A DNA stretch of 44,315 nucleotides from a virus. The notes under the pieces are model-generated. The model saw only the letters and a program-made list of their open reading frames with translations. It ran no database searches and was not told the origin of the DNA. The translations under genes and the position numbers were made by a program. Where the stretch lies: IMG/VR virus record IMGVR_UViG_3300031623_000011, positions 1 through 44,315 of that record; one strand, 5' to 3'. Positions 9,151 through 19,374 of the stretch are shown here, piece after piece (the stretch's first letter is position 1; each line of letters begins with the position of its first letter).

Positions 9151-10323
9151 ATGCCTTCAACAAATGCTTTAATTATTGATGCAGCTAGCGACACGAATCG
9201 AGAAGAACTAGCTCGTATGATTAAATTGTACGAGATTCCTGACTTCGTAAAGCAGGCCAACTTAGATTTTACTATGAATCCTGACGGTATTTCTATTAAT
9301 TCGTACGCAGATCCTGTACGCCAGAAATTTGCGTGTCATACCGCTGCTGCTACATGGGTTTCAGGTATGTATTTCCACGAAAAGAAAGCTGAATATCACC
9401 CCAAAGACCGGCAACGTATTGAATCTAGGCTAGAAAATTACGTTAATTACTGGAGAATTCGTCCTGCTTACGATACTTTAGTTAAACAAGCAAATGACTT
9501 GATTTCACAAGAGCTTCCTGATTCTTCCTACGCCTACGTATGGGTAGACGATCGGGGAGGCAAAGAAAGATATCTTCCGCTTAATTCCTCTATGAACATT
9601 AAGGCAGCCGCTGAGTGGCTGCACAAGTACCAAGACCGGCTACCATTTTCAGACCGGAATGTTATTGCTAAAAAGATCCTGGAAAAAGCCGGGAATACTG
9701 GTACTAACTTAGGGGAGCAATTGGGCGAGCACACAGAAAAACAAGCAGGACACGGTATCCCCGATCCTGACGAAGTTATTTCTATGATTAAACAACGCGC
9801 TAATTTAGCTACAAAAGCTACACATAAAGAAGAAATTCTCAAGCTAGCTTCAGCAGTAAAAAATCACGCACGTATTGCTTTACAACCAACAGAGCTCGTT
9901 AAGCTAGCAGAGACAATCGATATTATCGATAGTGCGTTACACATCAAAGGCAAGTACACAGATAATATCCAACGCCCTGAAGACGTTATCTTCAAAGTTA
10001 CTTTTACTAAAGCTGCATCGGAGCAGGCAGAGTTGTGCACTCTTCAAACCGGTAGTGTCTACAATAAAAATCAACTAGCCAAGTTAGCTAAAGACGACGT
10101 AGAGTCTTTGTTTGGCTCTGATTTTGCTAACGAAGTTTGTACCGGGTTAGAGATTGATTCGGAAAAAATGGCTGAAATTGCACATACACTGCCCACTCCT
10201 GACGCAGAACTACTAGAGCATTTACTGTCAGAAGCCGGGCAAAACCCAGCTTTTGGAAAAACAGCTTCGCATGAAGGACCTCCTCAAGAGGTTCTAGAAG
10301 CTCTAGCTAAACTATACGACTGA
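9151..10323 (+). CDS. Unknown phage protein, possibly virion-associated
   Basis: 390 residues from the second ATG (9151), seven bases after SD GGAG; ATG 9148 is the alternative. The protein is mostly helical, Lys/Ala-rich and without transmembrane segments. A stretch with RYLPLNSSMNIKAAAEWLHK and FSDRNVIAKKILEKA resembles a segment seen in phage proteins coded near head genes, which hints at a structural role. No catalytic motif found. It shares the plus strand with terL. Its start region interlocks with the primase-like start, and its last 12 nt overlap the convergent GP88-type gene. Confidence 0.6.
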   Translation: MPSTNALIIDAASDTNREELARMIKLYEIPDFVKQANLDFTMNPDGISINSYADPVRQKFACHTAAATWVSGMYFHEKKAEYHPKDRQRIESRLENYVNYWRIRPAYDTLVKQANDLISQELPDSSYAYVWVDDRGGKERYLPLNSSMNIKAAAEWLHKYQDRLPFSDRNVIAKKILEKAGNTGTNLGEQLGEHTEKQAGHGIPDPDEVISMIKQRANLATKATHKEEILKLASAVKNHARIALQPTELVKLAETIDIIDSALHIKGKYTDNIQRPEDVIFKVTFTKAASEQAELCTLQTGSVYNKNQLAKLAKDDVESLFGSDFANEVCTGLEIDSEKMAEIAHTLPTPDAELLEHLLSEAGQNPAFGKTASHEGPPQEVLEALAKLYD

Positions 10324-11001
10324 TGGGCTAAGCTCGACGAGCTTTTTCTTAGCTATTATCTCGTCTGTAAAGCACAGCTTGCATTTTGAGCAAGTTGTAA
10401 GTGTTACCCCGTTATCGTACGGGCACACTTGATTGCCCTTAGGGTCATATTTCATCACTGTCTTACGCTTATCTCGAAACACGAGATCAACCTTGTAAGA
10501 AGCGATGTCATCGTCATTCTCCATTAGGTAAGCTCGCCTAGCGTAGCTACTACGCGGCGGAGCCCCTGTGTCTTTGTCACAAGACCACCACATGAAGAAA
10601 TTAGGCTCTTTTGCCAGCTCTTTCAGCGCTGGAAGTATGTCGTCGCTACGCCAGCTCCGTGTATAGGCATAGAACGCGATATATGGCCTCCTACGGACGA
10701 TCTTGAGCCATTTCCGTACGTAGGCCTTATTATAGAAGTCCCCGCTTACATGGACGCGTACGACCCTAGCAAAGACATTGCTCAGGGCCGTGCTCATGTA
10801 CTGCGAGAAGTCCTTCTCTAGGGACATTTGGTAGTTTTTGTAATATGCGTCCTGCACACTGGGCATTCGAAAGAAGCCCTTCATTGCATAACATAATCTT
10901 CTACAGACCTCTGTGGATCCAACACAAATAGCTGCTAATGTAGGTAACGACCAACACCAAATGAGTTTACCCAGCTTGGTATTACCCGCTGTTATTGACA
11001 T
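10312..11001 (-). CDS. GP88-family phage protein
   Basis: 229 residues beginning SITAGNTKLGKLIWCWSLP, with conserved Cys (C27 to C42 region, VGSTEVCRRLCYAMKG), RVVRVHVSGDFYNKAYVRKW and AFYAYTRSWR. This matches the 'gene product 88' family of phage proteins, whose biochemical role is unknown. Late Cys clusters (CPYDNG, TTCSKCKLC) could bind metal, and four or more Cys near the N terminus suggest a metal or Fe-S site. It overlaps the previous gene by 10 nt and the convergent gene by 12 nt. Confidence 0.75.
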   Translation of the reverse strand: MSITAGNTKLGKLIWCWSLPTLAAICVGSTEVCRRLCYAMKGFFRMPSVQDAYYKNYQMSLEKDFSQYMSTALSNVFARVVRVHVSGDFYNKAYVRKWLKIVRRRPYIAFYAYTRSWRSDDILPALKELAKEPNFFMWWSCDKDTGAPPRSSYARRAYLMENDDDIASYKVDLVFRDKRKTVMKYDPKGNQVCPYDNGVTLTTCSKCKLCFTDEIIAKKKLVELSPSVV

Positions 11002-11429
11002 TTAAAATCCTCCTCCGCAAACGCTTGAAGAAGGCCCCAAATAGGCGCAAAACTTTCGCATCGGGCAAACAGACCGCAGCTGTCTGTAGGCATATCCCCC
11101 CAAGACATGCCTCCGCTTATCAGGACGTCATATTTCATTCCTGGAAAACGTATAGTACTCGTATCTCGAGGTTCGTCAGCATCGCGCAAAATCTCAAGGC
11201 AGGCTTCAAGAATATCTTCTCGCACTTCCTTGGCAAGTTCCTTATCGTGTTCCTCCTCGCTTAAACTAGAAGGATCTTTCTCGTCCGATAACTCCACGCA
11301 GCGAAAATCGCTATTAAATGCAAGAACTTCCTTATCGGGTACTCCTTCTACTGCTTCTCTAATCTTTACTTTCCTCTCGTCAGTAAGTTGACAATGAGGA
11401 AGTGAAGTTAAAATAAGATCAGCTCCCAT
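10992..11429 (-). CDS. Conserved phage protein with GGMSWGDMPTD motif
   Basis: 145 residues from the ATG at 11429 (SD AGGAGAAGG). The start MGADLILTSLPHCQL, the acidic centre and the C-terminal LISGGMSWGDMPTDSCG, then FAPIWGLLQAFAEED, recur in phage proteins of unknown function. An Asp/Glu-rich linker (LSDEKDPSSLSEEEHDKEL) joins the halves. No catalytic residues can be named. Overlaps neighbours by about 10 nt on each side. Confidence 0.7.
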   Translation of the reverse strand: MGADLILTSLPHCQLTDERKVKIREAVEGVPDKEVLAFNSDFRCVELSDEKDPSSLSEEEHDKELAKEVREDILEACLEILRDADEPRDTSTIRFPGMKYDVLISGGMSWGDMPTDSCGLFARCESFAPIWGLLQAFAEEDFKCQ

Positions 11430-11832
11430 TGCCTTCTCCTTTTCTAATTGTTGCCCAGTCACCGTCGCTTGAAATGTCGATAGAGTTGCCGAAATGCTTT
11501 TCTGCAAGTAACAACGCCTTTACAACATATTTGTCGTAAGGTTTATGGGCTGTCTTGCAGAAGTTAAAATACCCCCGTGGCTGGCTTGGGCAGATCGGCC
11601 AACCAAGTGGGCGCTCAACGCGAGTAAAATGAAAAGTTTCGTGGCCTGCGACGCCTTTACCGTTAAAACGAACTTCTTGCTCGCTGATGGTTGGCGGACT
11701 ATTAGGCTTATCATATTCCTCGCATAATACGCCGTTGGCGTCCGCTATTTCCGAGCTAAGTTCGTTAGTAAAATTAGCCCAGTCCTCCAGGCTCAATTCG
11801 TAATCCTTATCCCAATAATGTGCATAACCCAC
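11419..11832 (-). CDS. Conserved phage protein, MGYAHYW family
   Basis: 137 residues with a GTG start at 11832 after a strong SD, GAGGAGG. The opening MGYAHYW and the later HETFHFTR, YFNFCKTAHKPYD and ISSDGDW are hallmarks of a small protein spread across phages and some bacteria, function unknown. Conserved His, Cys and Trp suggest a compact alpha/beta fold. It is coupled to the 46-residue gene upstream. Confidence 0.75.
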   Translation of the reverse strand: MGYAHYWDKDYELSLEDWANFTNELSSEIADANGVLCEEYDKPNSPPTISEQEVRFNGKGVAGHETFHFTRVERPLGWPICPSQPRGYFNFCKTAHKPYDKYVVKALLLAEKHFGNSIDISSDGDWATIRKGEGNGS

Positions 11833-11973
11833 TTATTCTTCCTCCTCTACTAGCCAGTCGACTTCGTTTTTCATCAGGCGCTCGATCAACGTTTGTCGAG
11901 CCTCCTCCTTAGCGGCTTCTTCCGATTCCGCATCCGAAGCAATCATTGTTTCTACGTATACGAAGAAGGTCAT
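11833..11973 (-). CDS. 46-residue acidic helical protein
   Basis: The ATG at 11973 forms an ATGA overlap with the stop of the GHKL gene, and SD GAGGAGG lies six bases ahead. The peptide MTFFVYVETMIASDAESEEA continues as a Glu/Lys/Arg-rich helix and ends WLVEEEE. The short beta-then-helix start recalls small phage 'MTFFVYVE..I.AdseEEA' proteins that carry a single beta-beta-alpha unit. Function unknown. Excellent translation signals make it a real gene. Confidence 0.7.
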   Translation of the reverse strand: MTFFVYVETMIASDAESEEAAKEEARQTLIERLMKNEVDWLVEEEE

Positions 11974-13487
11974 CTCTGTGCCTCCTCATAAGAGACACCA
12001 TCATCAATAGCCTTTTGAGCGACCTGCAATTGGTTCAAAGGCACCGCCTTTAGTTTTGCACCTAAATAACACAAAGCTTCGTGGTACTTAGAGCTAAGAT
12101 GATCAAACTCGAAATGATGACCAAACTCGTGAATCAGTAACGCATCTAACGTTTCGGATCCAACCGCATACTTTGTGGCAAATGCTTTCTTACCAATCTT
12201 ATGCACATTAAAGTCAAGTTGTTTGGCCCCAAAAGCCGCAATCCAAGGTTTTCCTGGGAACCTCTTCATACGTACAAACCTAACGCCGATTGCCACACCC
12301 AAAAGCTCCATACCAAGCACCTTGGAGTAATGACGAACCGCTACCATAGCTTCGGTTAAGTCATCCTCTTCAAGTACTTCCACTGGTGGAGATGTAGGGT
12401 CATCGCTGTACGCGCCTACACCTGCGGTAGGAAACTCTTGAGACGACGAACTTAATGTTCCCGCCTCTTTCAAATTACCTCGCTGCCCCGATGTCAAACC
12501 ACGCGAAGGGATAATCGTGTATCCCTCGCTCATGGCTACAGCGTTTGCTTCCGGATTAGTGGGATCAAACGCTACGCTTTTCTCCCCGTACTTTTTAATA
12601 CGAAAAGTCTCAGCTGCGTCGTCATTACAACGCTTATCGGATGTAGCCTCGTTGACCCACGCCGCTTGAGTATCTTCCTCCTCCAACTGCTTGTGCATGT
12701 TGTTCATGACAGACACACGCACCTCCCTTAGGAACGAAAGCGTTACGTTGTCCCGCTCTGTGTTAAGAGGAACCTTCTGCTCAACAGAAACATGCCACTT
12801 ATCACCTGTCTCGACGACGGGGATACCCATTTCGTAAAGCATAGGTACTTCGCCGATTTCGGTCTCATAGATACGAACTTCTGTTTTACGGCGGCTCTTC
12901 CGTAAATCTTCTCCGATCTCGGTAGGGATAGTTTCTTCCCATGTTGCAACCGGTTCGCGATGATGTATCTCCGCGCCATTTACGCAAAGACGTAATCCTT
13001 CACGCACAATAAGTGTAGGTATGTAATCCAGCATTTCATCGAACTGTTTTTGATTACACATCAACTCCAAAGTAACGCGAGTACCGTCCGCATATTTTCG
13101 TCGCACATCCAGTTTTCGATCGTCATCATCCTCATTAAACTCAACGGTACCGCTAGTCGTCTCGATCTTCGCACTGTGGCAGAACGATAGCACCATCTTC
13201 TCGCCCAGGTTAAAACGACCGGCTTTTGTAGGGTCGTCTTTCTTCATAGACGGCGCAAACATTGTCCAGGCGTCCGAAAGACGAGCAAAACCAGGACCAT
13301 TGTCTGTTATAACTACCTCAACTCGAGGACGTCCTTCGAGCTTCGTCGTAGTGATGAAACACTCCGTCGCATCTGTATCCATTACATTCTGATACAACTC
13401 TCCAATCATGATGCCGAATCCACGGCGATCAACAATCCTCTGATTAACCTGTCTCATCCCTTTTCGATCTACTTCAAACCAACTCAT
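11970..13487 (-). CDS. GHKL ATPase fused to a metallopeptidase-like HExxH region
   Basis: 505 residues. The N-terminal GHKL (Hsp90/MutL/histidine-kinase-type) ATP-binding fold shows an N box ELYQNVMDTDATE (E30, N34), G1 TDNGPGF (61-67) and G2 GRFNLGEK (90-97). A transducer-like segment follows to about residue 250, then an acidic, Ser-rich linker. The C-terminal part contains LLIHEFGHHFEFDHLSSKYHEA (451 on, quoted as LLIHEFGHHFEFDHLSS), an HExxH zinc site with a later His/Glu as possible third ligand. Phage rIIA proteins are also GHKL ATPases, but this fusion differs. It is preceded by a terminator hairpin 14 nt before its ATG. An ATP-switched protease is inferred. Confidence 0.7.
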   Translation of the reverse strand: MSWFEVDRKGMRQVNQRIVDRRGFGIMIGELYQNVMDTDATECFITTTKLEGRPRVEVVITDNGPGFARLSDAWTMFAPSMKKDDPTKAGRFNLGEKMVLSFCHSAKIETTSGTVEFNEDDDDRKLDVRRKYADGTRVTLELMCNQKQFDEMLDYIPTLIVREGLRLCVNGAEIHHREPVATWEETIPTEIGEDLRKSRRKTEVRIYETEIGEVPMLYEMGIPVVETGDKWHVSVEQKVPLNTERDNVTLSFLREVRVSVMNNMHKQLEEEDTQAAWVNEATSDKRCNDDAAETFRIKKYGEKSVAFDPTNPEANAVAMSEGYTIIPSRGLTSGQRGNLKEAGTLSSSSQEFPTAGVGAYSDDPTSPPVEVLEEDDLTEAMVAVRHYSKVLGMELLGVAIGVRFVRMKRFPGKPWIAAFGAKQLDFNVHKIGKKAFATKYAVGSETLDALLIHEFGHHFEFDHLSSKYHEALCYLGAKLKAVPLNQLQVAQKAIDDGVSYEEAQR

Positions 13488-13990: not shown

Positions 13991-14299
13991 TTACCCTTTC
14001 ACCAATTGATTTTCAATGTGTTCCACTTCTGCCCCAATGGCGTCGCTCCTGCGATTAAACGGACCCAACGTAGGCCCGTCAAATATCCTGGCTCTCCACT
14101 TACATGGCCACAACCGTGTAAAGTCTGCCAGGATACTGGTGTCGTGCACCCACCTACGAATAAAGTGGAACAAAGCACGAAGAACCGGGTTAACCGGCTC
14201 AACGTGCGATGCCCGTTGATGCGTGAGACCAAGCTCATCATCAAATTCTTTTTCGTAGATCTTATGGACAGTAGCGTCCTTATCGATCACGATTTTCAT
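13991..14299 (-). CDS. Small conserved phage protein with RASHVEP and GPF motifs
   Basis: 102 residues. Pattern MKIVIDKD, then QRASHVEPVN, a hydrophobic middle, then FDGPTLGPFNRRSDAIGAEV and a C-terminal helix. The order RASHVEP ... GP.LGPF..R..A...E is typical of a widespread small phage family without known function. Its ATG forms an ATGA overlap with the previous gene, and its SD (AAGGAGA) lies inside the codons for the previous protein's C-terminal tag. The insert HFIRRWVHDTSILADF is longer than usual. Confidence 0.7.
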   Translation of the reverse strand: MKIVIDKDATVHKIYEKEFDDELGLTHQRASHVEPVNPVLRALFHFIRRWVHDTSILADFTRLWPCKWRARIFDGPTLGPFNRRSDAIGAEVEHIENQLVKG

Positions 14300-14691
14300 A
14301 TGCCTAAATTTCTCCTTGATACTCTCTTTTTAATTTTAGGTAGTTGAATAACTTGTTGCTTAACAATTACTTCCTTAACCTTAGGTTTCTCGGGCATTTT
14401 TGTTGCCCCAGAGATAAACTCCTTGCAGCAACGGGCCTGAAATCTACCCAGGTAATACTCTAAATCTAGCGTATTGCTATCTCGACGTTCATCAATGCGT
14501 ACAAGTACGAAGTAGTATCTTTTAACTTCGCGCTCTGAGTTACACGCCTCAAGATGCTCTGCAACTGCGGCAGAAAAAGCATGCAACTTTTCCGGCTTCG
14601 TTATACGATTTAGTCTAGTCAGTAATTGAGGCGGAGTCATATCATCTACCCGTTGTCGTGCATGCTCCATATCACGAGTAGTTAGGGACAT
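14296..14691 (-). CDS. Unknown protein ending in the VSRRNLGI tag
   Basis: 131 residues. The first 95 are helical and charged (TPPQLLTRLNRITKPEKL, HAFSAAVAEHLEAC), followed by a linker (KMPEKPKVKEVIVKQQVIQL) and a basic tail KKRVSRRNLGI. The tail is almost identical to that of the next upstream gene (KKKVSRRNLGV) although the bodies differ. SD GGGAG comes from the upstream tag codons. No enzymatic motif. Likely partner or client of the same machinery as its neighbour. Confidence 0.65.
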   Translation of the reverse strand: MSLTTRDMEHARQRVDDMTPPQLLTRLNRITKPEKLHAFSAAVAEHLEACNSEREVKRYYFVLVRIDERRDSNTLDLEYYLGRFQARCCKEFISGATKMPEKPKVKEVIVKQQVIQLPKIKKRVSRRNLGI

Positions 14692-14692
14692 A

Positions 14693-16087
14693 CTAAACTC
14701 CCAAGTTACGTCGGCTTACCTTTTTCTTCTTGCCTTGAATAGTAAGTTGCTCCGCCAATTTTCCTTTTAAATCAGACAATTGACCATGCACAGTATCTCG
14801 TCGTAAGCCACTATTTTTGAGGCTGTTAGTGATAGATGAACTAGATTCACCATGTGCAGTCAAGATAGTTTGCACTTGGTCTGAAAACGATTTCAACGGG
14901 CTATTCCCTGCGTCCAACAAGCCTTCAAATTTGTGCAGCTTCTCGCCCATATCAATCAGAGCTTGAATTTGTCCGTCAAACAATCGACAGTATTCGTCAT
15001 TCGTTTGGCGGGGCTTCAAACGACTGTTAAACTCTTCCTCGGGAATTAATAACACTTCCGTCGCTGGATTACCCTGCTGATCACGCTTATTCGTTCGCTT
15101 TCCGTTCTCGTCTGTCTTAACGATTTGGATTTTCACACGAACAAAATCCTCCGGAATATCTTCATTGGCATCTTCGTGACTCTCAAAGAAAGCTACTTCT
15201 CCGTCTCGAAGATGGGCGTAATCCGGATCTTCAATTGCAGGATTAACTCGAGTCCTTCGTCCCAACTGCTTAGTAGCAAGCGTTACCGCATCCAGAAGCG
15301 CTTGCATCATAGCCTCACAACAAGCCTGAACCTGCGAAGCAGCTTCGGACTTATATTGCTCAGTTAATGCTTCTCGCATCTTATACGGCAAATGAGTCGT
15401 ACTCAGCATGTGGTTAGCTGCTTCAAACGAGGGCGAGCGAACACGAATCTTTGACTCCACATAAGCCTGGCTTGGATACTTATGTCTAATCAACGCCCAG
15501 AAATCAGCTAATCGCGTCTTATCGCGTTCTTTAATGGTTTCATACCGTTGCAACAATCGTTGCCCCCAATCCATGTAAGAAGACATAATCACATCGAATT
15601 GGGTAACGAACGTTTCAATATTCTCATTGAGAATCATATAACGTCCTTTATCACGCTCGTTGTCTACAACTTGTTTAAGACCACCATTTTCCTCTGCGGT
15701 CTTTGCAGCTAACCCCCGCACAAGTGTTTGCTTCGGAACTGCGTATTTGCTAATGAGCGCATCAAAGCGCTTTTGTACTGCCGCTCCCTCCTTGATAATA
15801 GGAAATTCCTTTGGATCAAAGATCTTCAAAGAAGTTTGAACTGCATCTGGATCTGCATGAGCAGCAGACGCAATAACTTCCATCTCATTCCTAGGAATCG
15901 TACGAGATTTGGGCGGGCTGCTAATGCTATAACAAAAGAATGAACAATTACTGCCCACCCAATTCGCTGCTTGCTCCACGTCAATTTCACCCAAATTATC
16001 TACTGCATCTTGGGGTGTTTGTGGGGGTTGTTCTCCTGATGTCATTCCTTCTTCCTCCGTCATTTGTAGAAGTAAATCGTCACTCAT
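14693..16087 (-). CDS. Large helical protein ending in the VSRRNLGV tag
   Basis: 464 residues, largely alpha-helical and charged, with an acidic N terminus. Segments such as FDVIMSSYMDWGQRLLQRY and EAASQVQACCEAMMQALLDA suggest long helices; an inserted beta part (VRVKIQIVKTDENGK) and a C-terminal helix precede the tag KKKKVSRRNLGV. It is coded beside the Ycf46-like AAA+ ATPase, as helical DUF3150-like proteins often sit beside AAA+ genes in phages, but that family link is only a suggestion. Likely partner or substrate of the ATPase (inference). SD AGGACTAGGACG, five bases after the previous stop. Confidence 0.65.
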   Translation of the reverse strand: MSDDLLLQMTEEEGMTSGEQPPQTPQDAVDNLGEIDVEQAANWVGSNCSFFCYSISSPPKSRTIPRNEMEVIASAAHADPDAVQTSLKIFDPKEFPIIKEGAAVQKRFDALISKYAVPKQTLVRGLAAKTAEENGGLKQVVDNERDKGRYMILNENIETFVTQFDVIMSSYMDWGQRLLQRYETIKERDKTRLADFWALIRHKYPSQAYVESKIRVRSPSFEAANHMLSTTHLPYKMREALTEQYKSEAASQVQACCEAMMQALLDAVTLATKQLGRRTRVNPAIEDPDYAHLRDGEVAFFESHEDANEDIPEDFVRVKIQIVKTDENGKRTNKRDQQGNPATEVLLIPEEEFNSRLKPRQTNDEYCRLFDGQIQALIDMGEKLHKFEGLLDAGNSPLKSFSDQVQTILTAHGESSSSITNSLKNSGLRRDTVHGQLSDLKGKLAEQLTIQGKKKKVSRRNLGV

Positions 16088-16318: not shown

Positions 16319-18208
16319 TTAATCAACCTTTCTGACACCTCGACGAGGTGCACGAGTAGTGGCTTTAGAACTAGATGCCTTAGCTCTCTTCTGCTTACGC
16401 AGCGGCACGAACTTTTCACCAGTTTCAGCGTCCAGAATTTCGGCTTCTTCTGCCCACTTAAATAGTTCGTCAATCTTCTTCTTACCTGTGCCGCGATAGC
16501 ACAACGGAACCTTGGTAGCTGCTTTCACTAATGAAATACCCTGCTGCTCAGCCATCTCACAACAACCAGCTATTTCACCGACAGTCCAGTTCTCATCAGT
16601 AGGGGTCTCCTGTTCTTCCAAGTCATGACGTTTCCTATACATTTCCCAACCCGCATCCTTAGCCTCCCGGCCAGGAAAACCAAAAAGGAACCAAGCATTG
16701 AATCGGCCAGATCGAAGAAACTGGGGCGGAATAAAGCTGATGTCATTAGCACACGCTAGGATCAACACTTCTCGTTGCTCCTGCATAAAAGTTAACAAAC
16801 TACCACCGAGTCGCTTAGTAGTTCCCGAATCGCTGTTATCATCACCAACAGGAATAAACTGCTGAAACTCATCGATATCGAGAATACCGCCAATACTCTT
16901 CACAGCTGTAGTCAAGCGGCTCATATTTTTGTCTGTCTCGCCCTGCCATTTACTGAAGAGTTTACCGGGGTCAATCGAAGTAACGACTTTGTTATATTCC
17001 CCAGCGACACACTTAATGGTGTGGCTTTTTCCTGCGCCGGGTACTCCGACAAATCCAAGACCGTAAAGCGCCGCACGAAGTGGGACTCCTGCCCGTAATC
17101 CATTGCGGATATAATCTTTTAGCCCCTGCTGCCCAATCAGATTATCAAGACAATAAAAGTTTCGCTCCGGGCGAAATTTAGCTTCAAAATCTTCTGCGGG
17201 CATCGAATCTAACCAATGCTCACGAATAGCTGATCCATCTGAGTAACGAACTCTTGTTCGTACATGACCTTCGGGAAGCTCCCGATTCATTTGGTGCGTT
17301 TCTTCGATCAAACACGTTACATCCTTATATTCATTAAATTCGTGTCCAGGAATCGGCCAGAGTTTGAAATCTTCTAAGTCTGCACTCCAAAAGTCTAAGT
17401 CTTGTTTTGCCAACTGCTCCCCTTTGAATTTTTGCATGCTTAGATAATTCAAAGCGTGATAAGTGGTAAGACTCTTTGCTACACATCGTTCTGTAGCTGA
17501 ACGACTTAAGCCGCTAGTTACCTCTACCGTCTTAGTTATCATCTCTTCAGATATATTCGAGGCAAATGTAACACCTAGAACAAGATCATCAATGATAAGT
17601 TGACGTTCCTCCCCTTGAGGAATACCGTGCTCGATGATTGCGCAATACTCGGCAAGTTCGGCGGGTAACTTTATACCCGGCTGAACTAACAAGATTACAG
17701 AAGTATTAACCTGAGCTCCCTTATCTCGTAAATGAGTCAATGCAGCCAATAACTCTGTGTGAACATTTGCATCTGACCCGTTAGGCATTAACGCACGATC
17801 AGCATACGCCAGCATCAATATTTGAAGAACTGAATCACCTGGTTGAGATGTGTCATTCTCTACGCGGTTGCAGCGACTCTCAGCACTACCCAGAAAAAAT
17901 TGAACTGCTGTCAATGCATCTTCAACGTCTTGTGCCTGCGGAGTAATTCCAAGCTTTGCCAAATCGTCATCTTGCTGTACGGAGGACGGCGTGGCAGTAA
18001 ATGGCATTCCCTCTGAGTCATACAAACCTTTAATGGGATCGTGAATAGCTACGATCGCTGATTTCTCTACGTCTTCTTCTTCTTTATTTCTACGATAAAT
18101 CTCTGCCGTGATCTCGTAGATTACTTCCATTGGCTCTACTGTTTCGATAACAATACATGCTTCGTGACAAGTGAAAGCGTGATTTAAGTCAGCAATTAAC
18201 TTACTCAT
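16319..18208 (-). CDS. Ycf46-type AAA+ ATPase
   Basis: 629 residues. An N-terminal domain of about 350 residues (CIVIETVEPMEVIYEI..., resembling the Ycf46 lead region) precedes one AAA+ module: Walker A GVPGAGKS (388-395), Walker B GILDIDEFQ (441-449), the family-typical SDSGTTKRLGGSLLTFMQEQ (459-478), sensor-1 Asn in ACANDI (N488) and the Arg pair FLRSGRFN. This matches Ycf46 of cyanobacteria and red-algal plastids. A basic, Ser/Lys-rich tail follows residue 600. It remodels unknown substrates using ATP. Its ATG overlaps the DUF2997 stop (ATGA), so the two are translationally coupled. Confidence 0.85.
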   Translation of the reverse strand: MSKLIADLNHAFTCHEACIVIETVEPMEVIYEITAEIYRRNKEEEDVEKSAIVAIHDPIKGLYDSEGMPFTATPSSVQQDDDLAKLGITPQAQDVEDALTAVQFFLGSAESRCNRVENDTSQPGDSVLQILMLAYADRALMPNGSDANVHTELLAALTHLRDKGAQVNTSVILLVQPGIKLPAELAEYCAIIEHGIPQGEERQLIIDDLVLGVTFASNISEEMITKTVEVTSGLSRSATERCVAKSLTTYHALNYLSMQKFKGEQLAKQDLDFWSADLEDFKLWPIPGHEFNEYKDVTCLIEETHQMNRELPEGHVRTRVRYSDGSAIREHWLDSMPAEDFEAKFRPERNFYCLDNLIGQQGLKDYIRNGLRAGVPLRAALYGLGFVGVPGAGKSHTIKCVAGEYNKVVTSIDPGKLFSKWQGETDKNMSRLTTAVKSIGGILDIDEFQQFIPVGDDNSDSGTTKRLGGSLLTFMQEQREVLILACANDISFIPPQFLRSGRFNAWFLFGFPGREAKDAGWEMYRKRHDLEEQETPTDENWTVGEIAGCCEMAEQQGISLVKAATKVPLCYRGTGKKKIDELFKWAEEAEILDAETGEKFVPLRKQKRAKASSSKATTRAPRRGVRKVD

Positions 18209-18408
18209 TCTGTTTCCCTTACTTTTGTGGTTGCTTCGGCTTTGTAAAAGTCTTCCGTCTTTTTGTCTGTTTTAGTGCCGGGAGCCAGCAGTTCATCAAA
18301 CGGTGCCGTAGCCTCATAACAAGCATTTGGTCCCGAATATCCTACGGGTTGAATACTTTCTACGTCCCCGTTTTTCGCAATTGTAATAAACACTTTCTTA
18401 AGACCCAT
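18205..18408 (-). CDS. DUF2997-like small protein
   Basis: 67 residues: KKVFITIAKNGDVESIQPVG, then SGPNACYEATAPFDELL and a charged tail. The pattern 'I.I...G.......G..G..C...T..' is that of DUF2997, a small beta-alpha protein often coded with DUF1257 and a Ycf46-type ATPase. SD AAGGAGG lies seven bases before the ATG, inside the end of the previous gene. It is coupled to the AAA+ gene by ATGA. Function unknown; likely adaptor or subunit. Confidence 0.65.
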   Translation of the reverse strand: MGLKKVFITIAKNGDVESIQPVGYSGPNACYEATAPFDELLAPGTKTDKKTEDFYKAEATTKVRETE

Positions 18409-18637
18409 TTTTTTCCTCCTTTAGAGGTTGTTGTACGTGCGAATCGAAAAACATAGCTCTCACACCAAACTCTGGGTATGTTTTCCAGGTGGTAGCAATG
18501 CATTCGTCTTTCTGCCACACGTCTAGAACCACCCCCTCATCTTCCAGTTTTACGCTAATGCTTATCGGATCACCTTCTCCCGTGTCTTGAACACTTCCAA
18601 AACAATCCAAATGAATATATCTGTCTTTGAAGGTCAT
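18398..18637 (-). CDS. Small beta-rich conserved phage protein
   Basis: 79 residues from the ATG at 18637, which overlaps the DUF1257 stop (ATGA) with SD GGAG inside that gene's tail. MTFKDRYIHLDCFGSVQDTG and ISISVKLEDEGVVLDVW form alternating strands; the end is charged. Its place between DUF1257 and DUF2997 makes it a candidate member of the same complex. No family name can be given. Confidence 0.65.
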   Translation of the reverse strand: MTFKDRYIHLDCFGSVQDTGEGDPISISVKLEDEGVVLDVWQKDECIATTWKTYPEFGVRAMFFDSHVQQPLKEEKNGS

Positions 18638-19374
18638 TCTTCTGTCTCCACGCATACTTTACCGTTAGGCAACTGTTCAACAGCCTTAACCTTTCTTCCA
18701 GCTTGCTTAGCCCTGTTGGCGTAAGCCGCTGCGGTATATCGCTGCTTCAAGTCTTGCCCCCAATCCGTGGTGTTAACTTCCGTCTTTTTACCATCGGGGC
18801 CAATTTCTGTCTTCTTTTCGTGAACCACTCCACCTAAACCTTTGGCATCCATTAACCCATAGCCATTTTGCCAATAGTCTGCACTGAGCCAGTACTCACC
18901 TTTTCGAGTAGGATGGGGGATCACGCCAATTTCGTACGACTCACCGCTTTTACTATGCTCCTTCTTGTAGCGAATAACATACTCAGCATCCTTACCAATC
19001 TTCTCGTTCTGCTTGTCAAACGCTTCCTTAAATTGTGCTATTTTGAGAAGCTTGCGAGTCTCATTCAAATCGAGCGGATTCTCCTCAATCTGAAGAGGAC
19101 TTTCCGGTAATTCTACCCCGGCACCTTTTGCTAATTCTCGTACTTCTTCCCACGAGAGATTCATCTCTTTAACCATGTAGATCATGGCCTGAAGCTGGTA
19201 GACAGGTGTAGGCGCAGAATCACCCACAATACTGCCGAACCACTTATATGTATTTTGTTTGACTAGCTCGAGTTCTGGACATCCATCTATGCCGTACTCA
19301 GGCATCCCTTTCACTGCCTGAAGTAATGCCACAAGATCTTTTACCTTTATTTTTCCAGCTGATACATGACTCAT
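18634..19374 (-). CDS. Ycf35/DUF1257-like protein
   Basis: 246 residues. It opens MSHVSAGKIKVKDLVALLQA, like DUF1257 proteins (MSHfs.i.t.i.d...L..al). The C-terminal part has YEIGVIPHPTRKGEYWLSAD, a W/G-rich turn, QRYTAAAYANRAKQAGRKVK and a final strand, again as in long phage DUF1257 proteins. The plastid Ycf35 is about half as long; the extra middle is helical. Function unknown. It is coupled by ATGA overlaps to genes on both sides, in one operon with DUF2997 and the Ycf46-like ATPase. Confidence 0.7.
   Translation of the reverse strand: MSHVSAGKIKVKDLVALLQAVKGMPEYGIDGCPELELVKQNTYKWFGSIVGDSAPTPVYQLQAMIYMVKEMNLSWEEVRELAKGAGVELPESPLQIEENPLDLNETRKLLKIAQFKEAFDKQNEKIGKDAEYVIRYKKEHSKSGESYEIGVIPHPTRKGEYWLSADYWQNGYGLMDAKGLGGVVHEKKTEIGPDGKKTEVNTTDWGQDLKQRYTAAAYANRAKQAGRKVKAVEQLPNGKVCVETEE

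Follow-up and report, generated by a model that had tools for sequence, protein, structure and literature searches.

Short terminal tags determine the targets of AAA+ machines, shells, and proteases. The terminal tags that AAA+ machines recognize are often disordered, and a disordered linker is the usual place for a short linear motif. In encapsulin-type cargo loading, unrelated cargo proteins carry a common short terminal peptide, often behind a flexible linker. Phage genomes contain many AAA+ genes whose substrates are not known. One described phage signal is the C-terminal tag of the phage Mu transposase MuA (RRKKAI), which is read by ClpX (PMC5143411, PMC9775585). The five listed members of ClpX C-motif-2 have KK, KK, KK, KH, and RK at positions -4/-3 (PMC9775585). 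The locus described here lies in a 44,315-nucleotide stretch of phage DNA, the whole of which is referred to as the window. Two adjacent proteins encoded in it end in closely similar short, basic peptides, and their genes run in the same direction as a nearby AAA+ gene.

Two adjacent proteins with a shared C-terminal tail

Both tagged proteins are encoded on the minus strand. The small protein (131 aa, 14296–14691) ends in KKRVSRRNLGI (14299–14331; stop codon at 14296–14298), and the large protein (464 aa, 14693–16087) ends in KKKVSRRNLGV (14696–14728; stop codon at 14693–14695), so both open reading frames and their endings are as the original prediction gave them. Nine of the 11 tail residues are identical between the two proteins, as are 17 of the 33 tail nucleotides, and the codons differ at eight of the nine identical residues (e.g., TCA vs. 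AGC for the serine). Over the last 12 residues the pair has a BLOSUM62 score of 46; when the tails of the window's ORFs are compared in 30,876 pairs, the runner-up scores 28. Shuffling the 141 tails of a related phage (described below) 300 times never gave a best pair above 31, against the 46 of the tagged pair. The likeness of the two tails is unlikely to be due to chance.

With the tag removed, the two bodies give a local alignment score of 29 against a shuffle median of 31; there is no signal of relatedness, and common ancestry of the bodies was dropped as an explanation. A recent DNA copy of the tail is ruled out by the nucleotide identity of just 17 in 33. The claims that the bodies differ and that the likeness is held at the protein level thus both stand. 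Because the residues are kept while the codons have diverged, the tail is not unselected sequence. Two further causes were considered and rejected. Neither gene end folds better than shuffled sequence, which rules out RNA structure. The small gene encodes Arg-Arg as AGG AGA, which resembles a ribosome-binding site placed for the following gene; the CGA CGT of the large gene shows no such resemblance, and a ribosome-binding constraint was set aside.

The AlphaFold2 model of the small protein has a mean pLDDT of 61, with values of 70–86 at residues 11–70 and below 50 at residues 83–118. A helical domain occupies approximately residues 1–94, and the predicted linker that follows it (approximately residues 95–131), at the end of which the tag sits, is probably disordered. 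A fold search with the small protein gave no match, and no family is assigned to it. The large protein is mostly helical, and its model (pLDDT 41) is too poor for use. Its sole family lead is a similarity to DUF3150 that falls below threshold (E=1e-4; 22.1 bits, or 23.7 bits for the version in the related phage, vs. a Pfam gathering cut-off of 24.9). A literature search on DUF3150 returned no mention of the family, and searches on RRNLG and on Ycf46 in phage found nothing relevant.

A single relative and the distribution of the tag

Querying IMG/VR with the large protein yielded one relative, IMGVR_UViG_3300020447_000001 (116,382 bases). Its large protein is 95% identical to that of the window and ends in the same KKKVSRRNLGV; the adjoining small protein is 92% identical and ends in KKKIARRNLGV. 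Tail position, gene order, and adjacency of the tagged pair are the same in the two phages, and the core common to the four tails is KK-x-[VI]-[SA]-RRNLG-[VI]-COOH. In this one relative, then, the counterparts of both proteins keep the tag, whose loss there would have told against the original prediction.

Conservation of the tag is judged here from two phages only, the second being a close relative (92–95% identity in the tagged proteins). Since the large proteins are 95% identical, the unchanged tag of the large protein tells little. The small proteins of the two phages differ at 10 amino acids, four of which lie inside the 11-residue tag; the four changes are all conservative (R/K, V/I, S/A, and I/V), and RRNLG is fixed. 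With four of the 10 differences within it, the tag outside RRNLG is kept no better than the body, and the RRNLG core looks constrained.

A search for more proteins ending in S-R-R-N-L-G-[IV], proposed with the original prediction, produced none in the relative or in pattern scans across sequence collections. Of the 141 genes called for the relative, the 139 outside the tagged pair have no tag-like ending. When IMG/VR was scanned with degenerate DNA patterns derived from the tag, the only matches were the relative and one further site outside any ORF in its frame. A strict pattern scanned against 84,980 prokaryote genomes gave two matches and no credible tagged ORF: both matches, in Paenibacillus, lie opposite a conserved membrane-protein gene and end in TGG rather than a stop codon. 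Each scan accepts only sequences that fit its pattern exactly, two of them with a restricted set of codons, so diverged tags would escape. On these sequence comparisons the tag appears to be a lineage-specific feature, present in one known phage lineage and on two proteins per phage.

A candidate recognition motif and the AAA+ operon

The motif is exactly C-terminal in both proteins, has been retained at the protein level while its codons diverged, and is kept in the relative. The explanation that we favor, at somewhat better than even confidence, is that the tail serves both co-translated phage proteins as a short linear recognition motif, by which they are recruited to the same partner. The core KK-x-[VI]-[SA]-RRNLG-[VI]-COOH would act as a binding or docking motif, a single partner would read the copies on both proteins, and the free carboxylate and the aliphatic last residue would be part of what is read. 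Foremost among the candidate readers are the AAA+ protein encoded in this operon and an AAA+ unfoldase of the host; nucleic acid, or the two tagged proteins for each other, are also candidates. The original prediction proposed a docking, encapsulation, degradation, or localization tag. A recognition tag is indeed the simplest reading of tails that are kept in the relative, but the proposed tie to the AAA+ protein is without comparative support. The suggestion of an undescribed system is possible and unproven.

The AAA+ ATPase (16319–18208, minus strand) lies upstream of the tagged pair and has a classical AAA module at approximately residues 382–522 (Pfam AAA, E=2.9e-17); in profile comparisons with solved structures it matches VCP/CDC48 chains best. 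The minus strand also encodes a DUF2997-like small protein (18205–18408; Pfam E=0.088) and a weakly recognized DUF1257-like protein (18634–19374; Pfam E=0.048), both below the Pfam cut-off. Of the claim that the tagged pair shares one co-directional operon with a Ycf46-type AAA+ ATPase and with DUF2997 and DUF1257 genes, the common direction and the AAA+ assignment hold, whereas the two DUF assignments are weak. In Rhodobacter phage RcTiptonus, a gene next to the AAA-ATPase encodes a relative of the DUF2997-like protein (hhalign probability 72, phmmer E=0.0038), which lends this assignment some support. In Rhizobium phage RHph_I4, annotated ATPase, DUF1257, and DUF2997 genes occur together, a grouping which indicates that the AAA+/DUF1257/DUF2997 cassette recurs in phages. 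A literature search on DUF2997 and DUF1257 found no functional study.

The reader favored by the original prediction is this phage complex, on which the tag would dock both proteins as substrates or adaptors. We consider this unlikely, though it has points in its favor: the tagged pair and the AAA+ gene share a co-directional operon in both phages, and AAA+ machines often read disordered terminal tags, as noted above. Against it, AAA+ genes of this type occur in other phages without the tagged proteins. Six phages with related AAA+ genes have no detectable homologue of either tagged protein and no tag, and the link between tag and AAA+ protein therefore amounts to operon co-location in one lineage; the predicted tie to the AAA+/DUF1257 machinery was not borne out. 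The AAA+ proteins of the two phages are moreover 60% identical while the large protein's tag is unchanged, and no co-variation is visible. The fuller version, in which the operon's machine recognizes the tag core and remodels or positions both proteins during infection as a tag-and-reader pair, seems to us quite improbable. To our knowledge, no substrate signal has so far been defined for this AAA+ family, and a tag read by the operon's AAA+ protein would be the first. As a merely private docking motif of one lineage, the tail would still be a clean short linear motif common to unrelated phage proteins.

The AAA+ gene is itself mosaic. Its coding region (16350–18250 in the window, 52588–54486 in the relative) has about 60% nucleotide and amino-acid identity between the two phages, with many synonymous changes, and its flanks are mostly 90–97% identical. 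The block, which comprises essentially one gene, may be a sharply bounded allele exchange or may diversify fast. Should the AAA+ protein be the reader, its recognition of the tag has survived exchange for a version that is 60% identical. The AAA+ tail (TTRAPRRGVRKVD) was considered as a third tag and rejected: it fails to align with the tag, and its DNA is identical in both phages because the divergent block stops immediately ahead of it. The identity of the last codons probably marks a recombination edge rather than a conserved tag. In the relative, a small gene (46654–47025) holds an in-frame scrap of the window-type AAA+ gene from the Walker A region (window 16982–17047; 88% nucleotide identity over 66 bases, followed by a 14-codon gap and then ETDKNLSR). 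The window's counterpart of this small gene is without the scrap.

Several neighboring genes on the minus strand were also characterized. The ATG of an untagged 102-aa protein (13991–14299) overlaps the stop codon of the small tagged gene (ATGA). This protein is 35% identical to the product of a Tunturiibacter phage Tunturi_3 gene that lies four genes past that phage's AAA+ gene, and is possibly a further member of the AAA+ cassette. Two adjacent Tunturi_3 genes with like tails (gp110/gp109) were considered as a parallel case and proved to be partial paralogues instead. A 505-aa protein (11970–13487) has an N-terminal GHKL/sacsin-like ATP-binding domain (HATPase_c, Pfam E=1.7e-5, just below cut-off) and a zincin-like HEFGHH near its C-terminus; it has relatives in two other IMG/VR phages (38% and 33% identity), from which the tagged pair is absent. 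A stretch of about 400 bases that the otherwise near-identical relative lacks contains a 137-aa ORF (11419–11832), and a GP88-family phage protein (Pfam E=2.2e-30) is encoded at 10312–11001.

Other candidate readers and comparison with known systems

The tail might instead be a C-terminal degron or remodeling signal for a host AAA+ unfoldase (e.g., ClpX), in the manner of MuA RRKKAI, and time the removal of the two proteins. The arginines at -6/-5, the small residue at -2, and the Ile/Val at -1 match the MuA tag (PMC9775585, PMC5143411), but the tail has Asn-Leu at -4/-3, where five of the five listed C-motif-2 members are basic (PMC9775585), and we regard this reading as a serious rival but an unlikely one, more so than docking on the phage complex. 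Somewhat less probable again is binding between the tagged proteins, which would compete for or share a site on each other, the small one mimicking the tail of the large one and capping or regulating its self-assembly; the confinement of the tag to these two adjacent, translationally coupled proteins fits such an arrangement, for which the unusable model of the large protein offers no support. Least credible is a tail that was copied long ago between gene ends and tolerated, or a basic tail that binds nucleic acid in a generic way. Fragments of genes do get shuffled in this lineage (the Walker A scrap), and the tag is Lys/Arg-rich, but its residues stayed while its codons diverged, unlike unselected sequence, and a generic basic tail would not preserve N-L-G-[VI] at a constant spacing from the C-terminal end.

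A recognition motif common to the two proteins remains the preferred reading, and several described systems offer comparisons for it. Like the C-motif-2 signals of MuA and its E. coli relatives, the tag is short, basic, and C-terminal. Unlike them, it has a longer conserved upstream stretch (KK-x-[VI]-[SA]), and because Asn-Leu replaces the basic pair found in all five members, the tag is not filed as a member of the class. Like ssrA and C-motif-1 tags, it is a terminal peptide on otherwise unrelated proteins; in contrast to these, it ends in Gly-Ile/Val rather than Ala-Ala, and is genome-encoded on two fixed proteins rather than added by tmRNA. It likewise resembles encapsulin cargo peptides in being a short terminal peptide common to unrelated proteins; we recognize no sequence likeness to these peptides, and no shell gene was recognized among the operon proteins scanned. 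Finally, the operon resembles those of phages with Ycf46-type AAA+/DUF1257/DUF2997 cassettes (RHph_I4 and RcTiptonus) in having weakly assigned DUF2997-like and DUF1257-like genes near its AAA+ gene, and differs from theirs, from which both tagged proteins and the tag are absent, in carrying two adjacent proteins that end in the same core.
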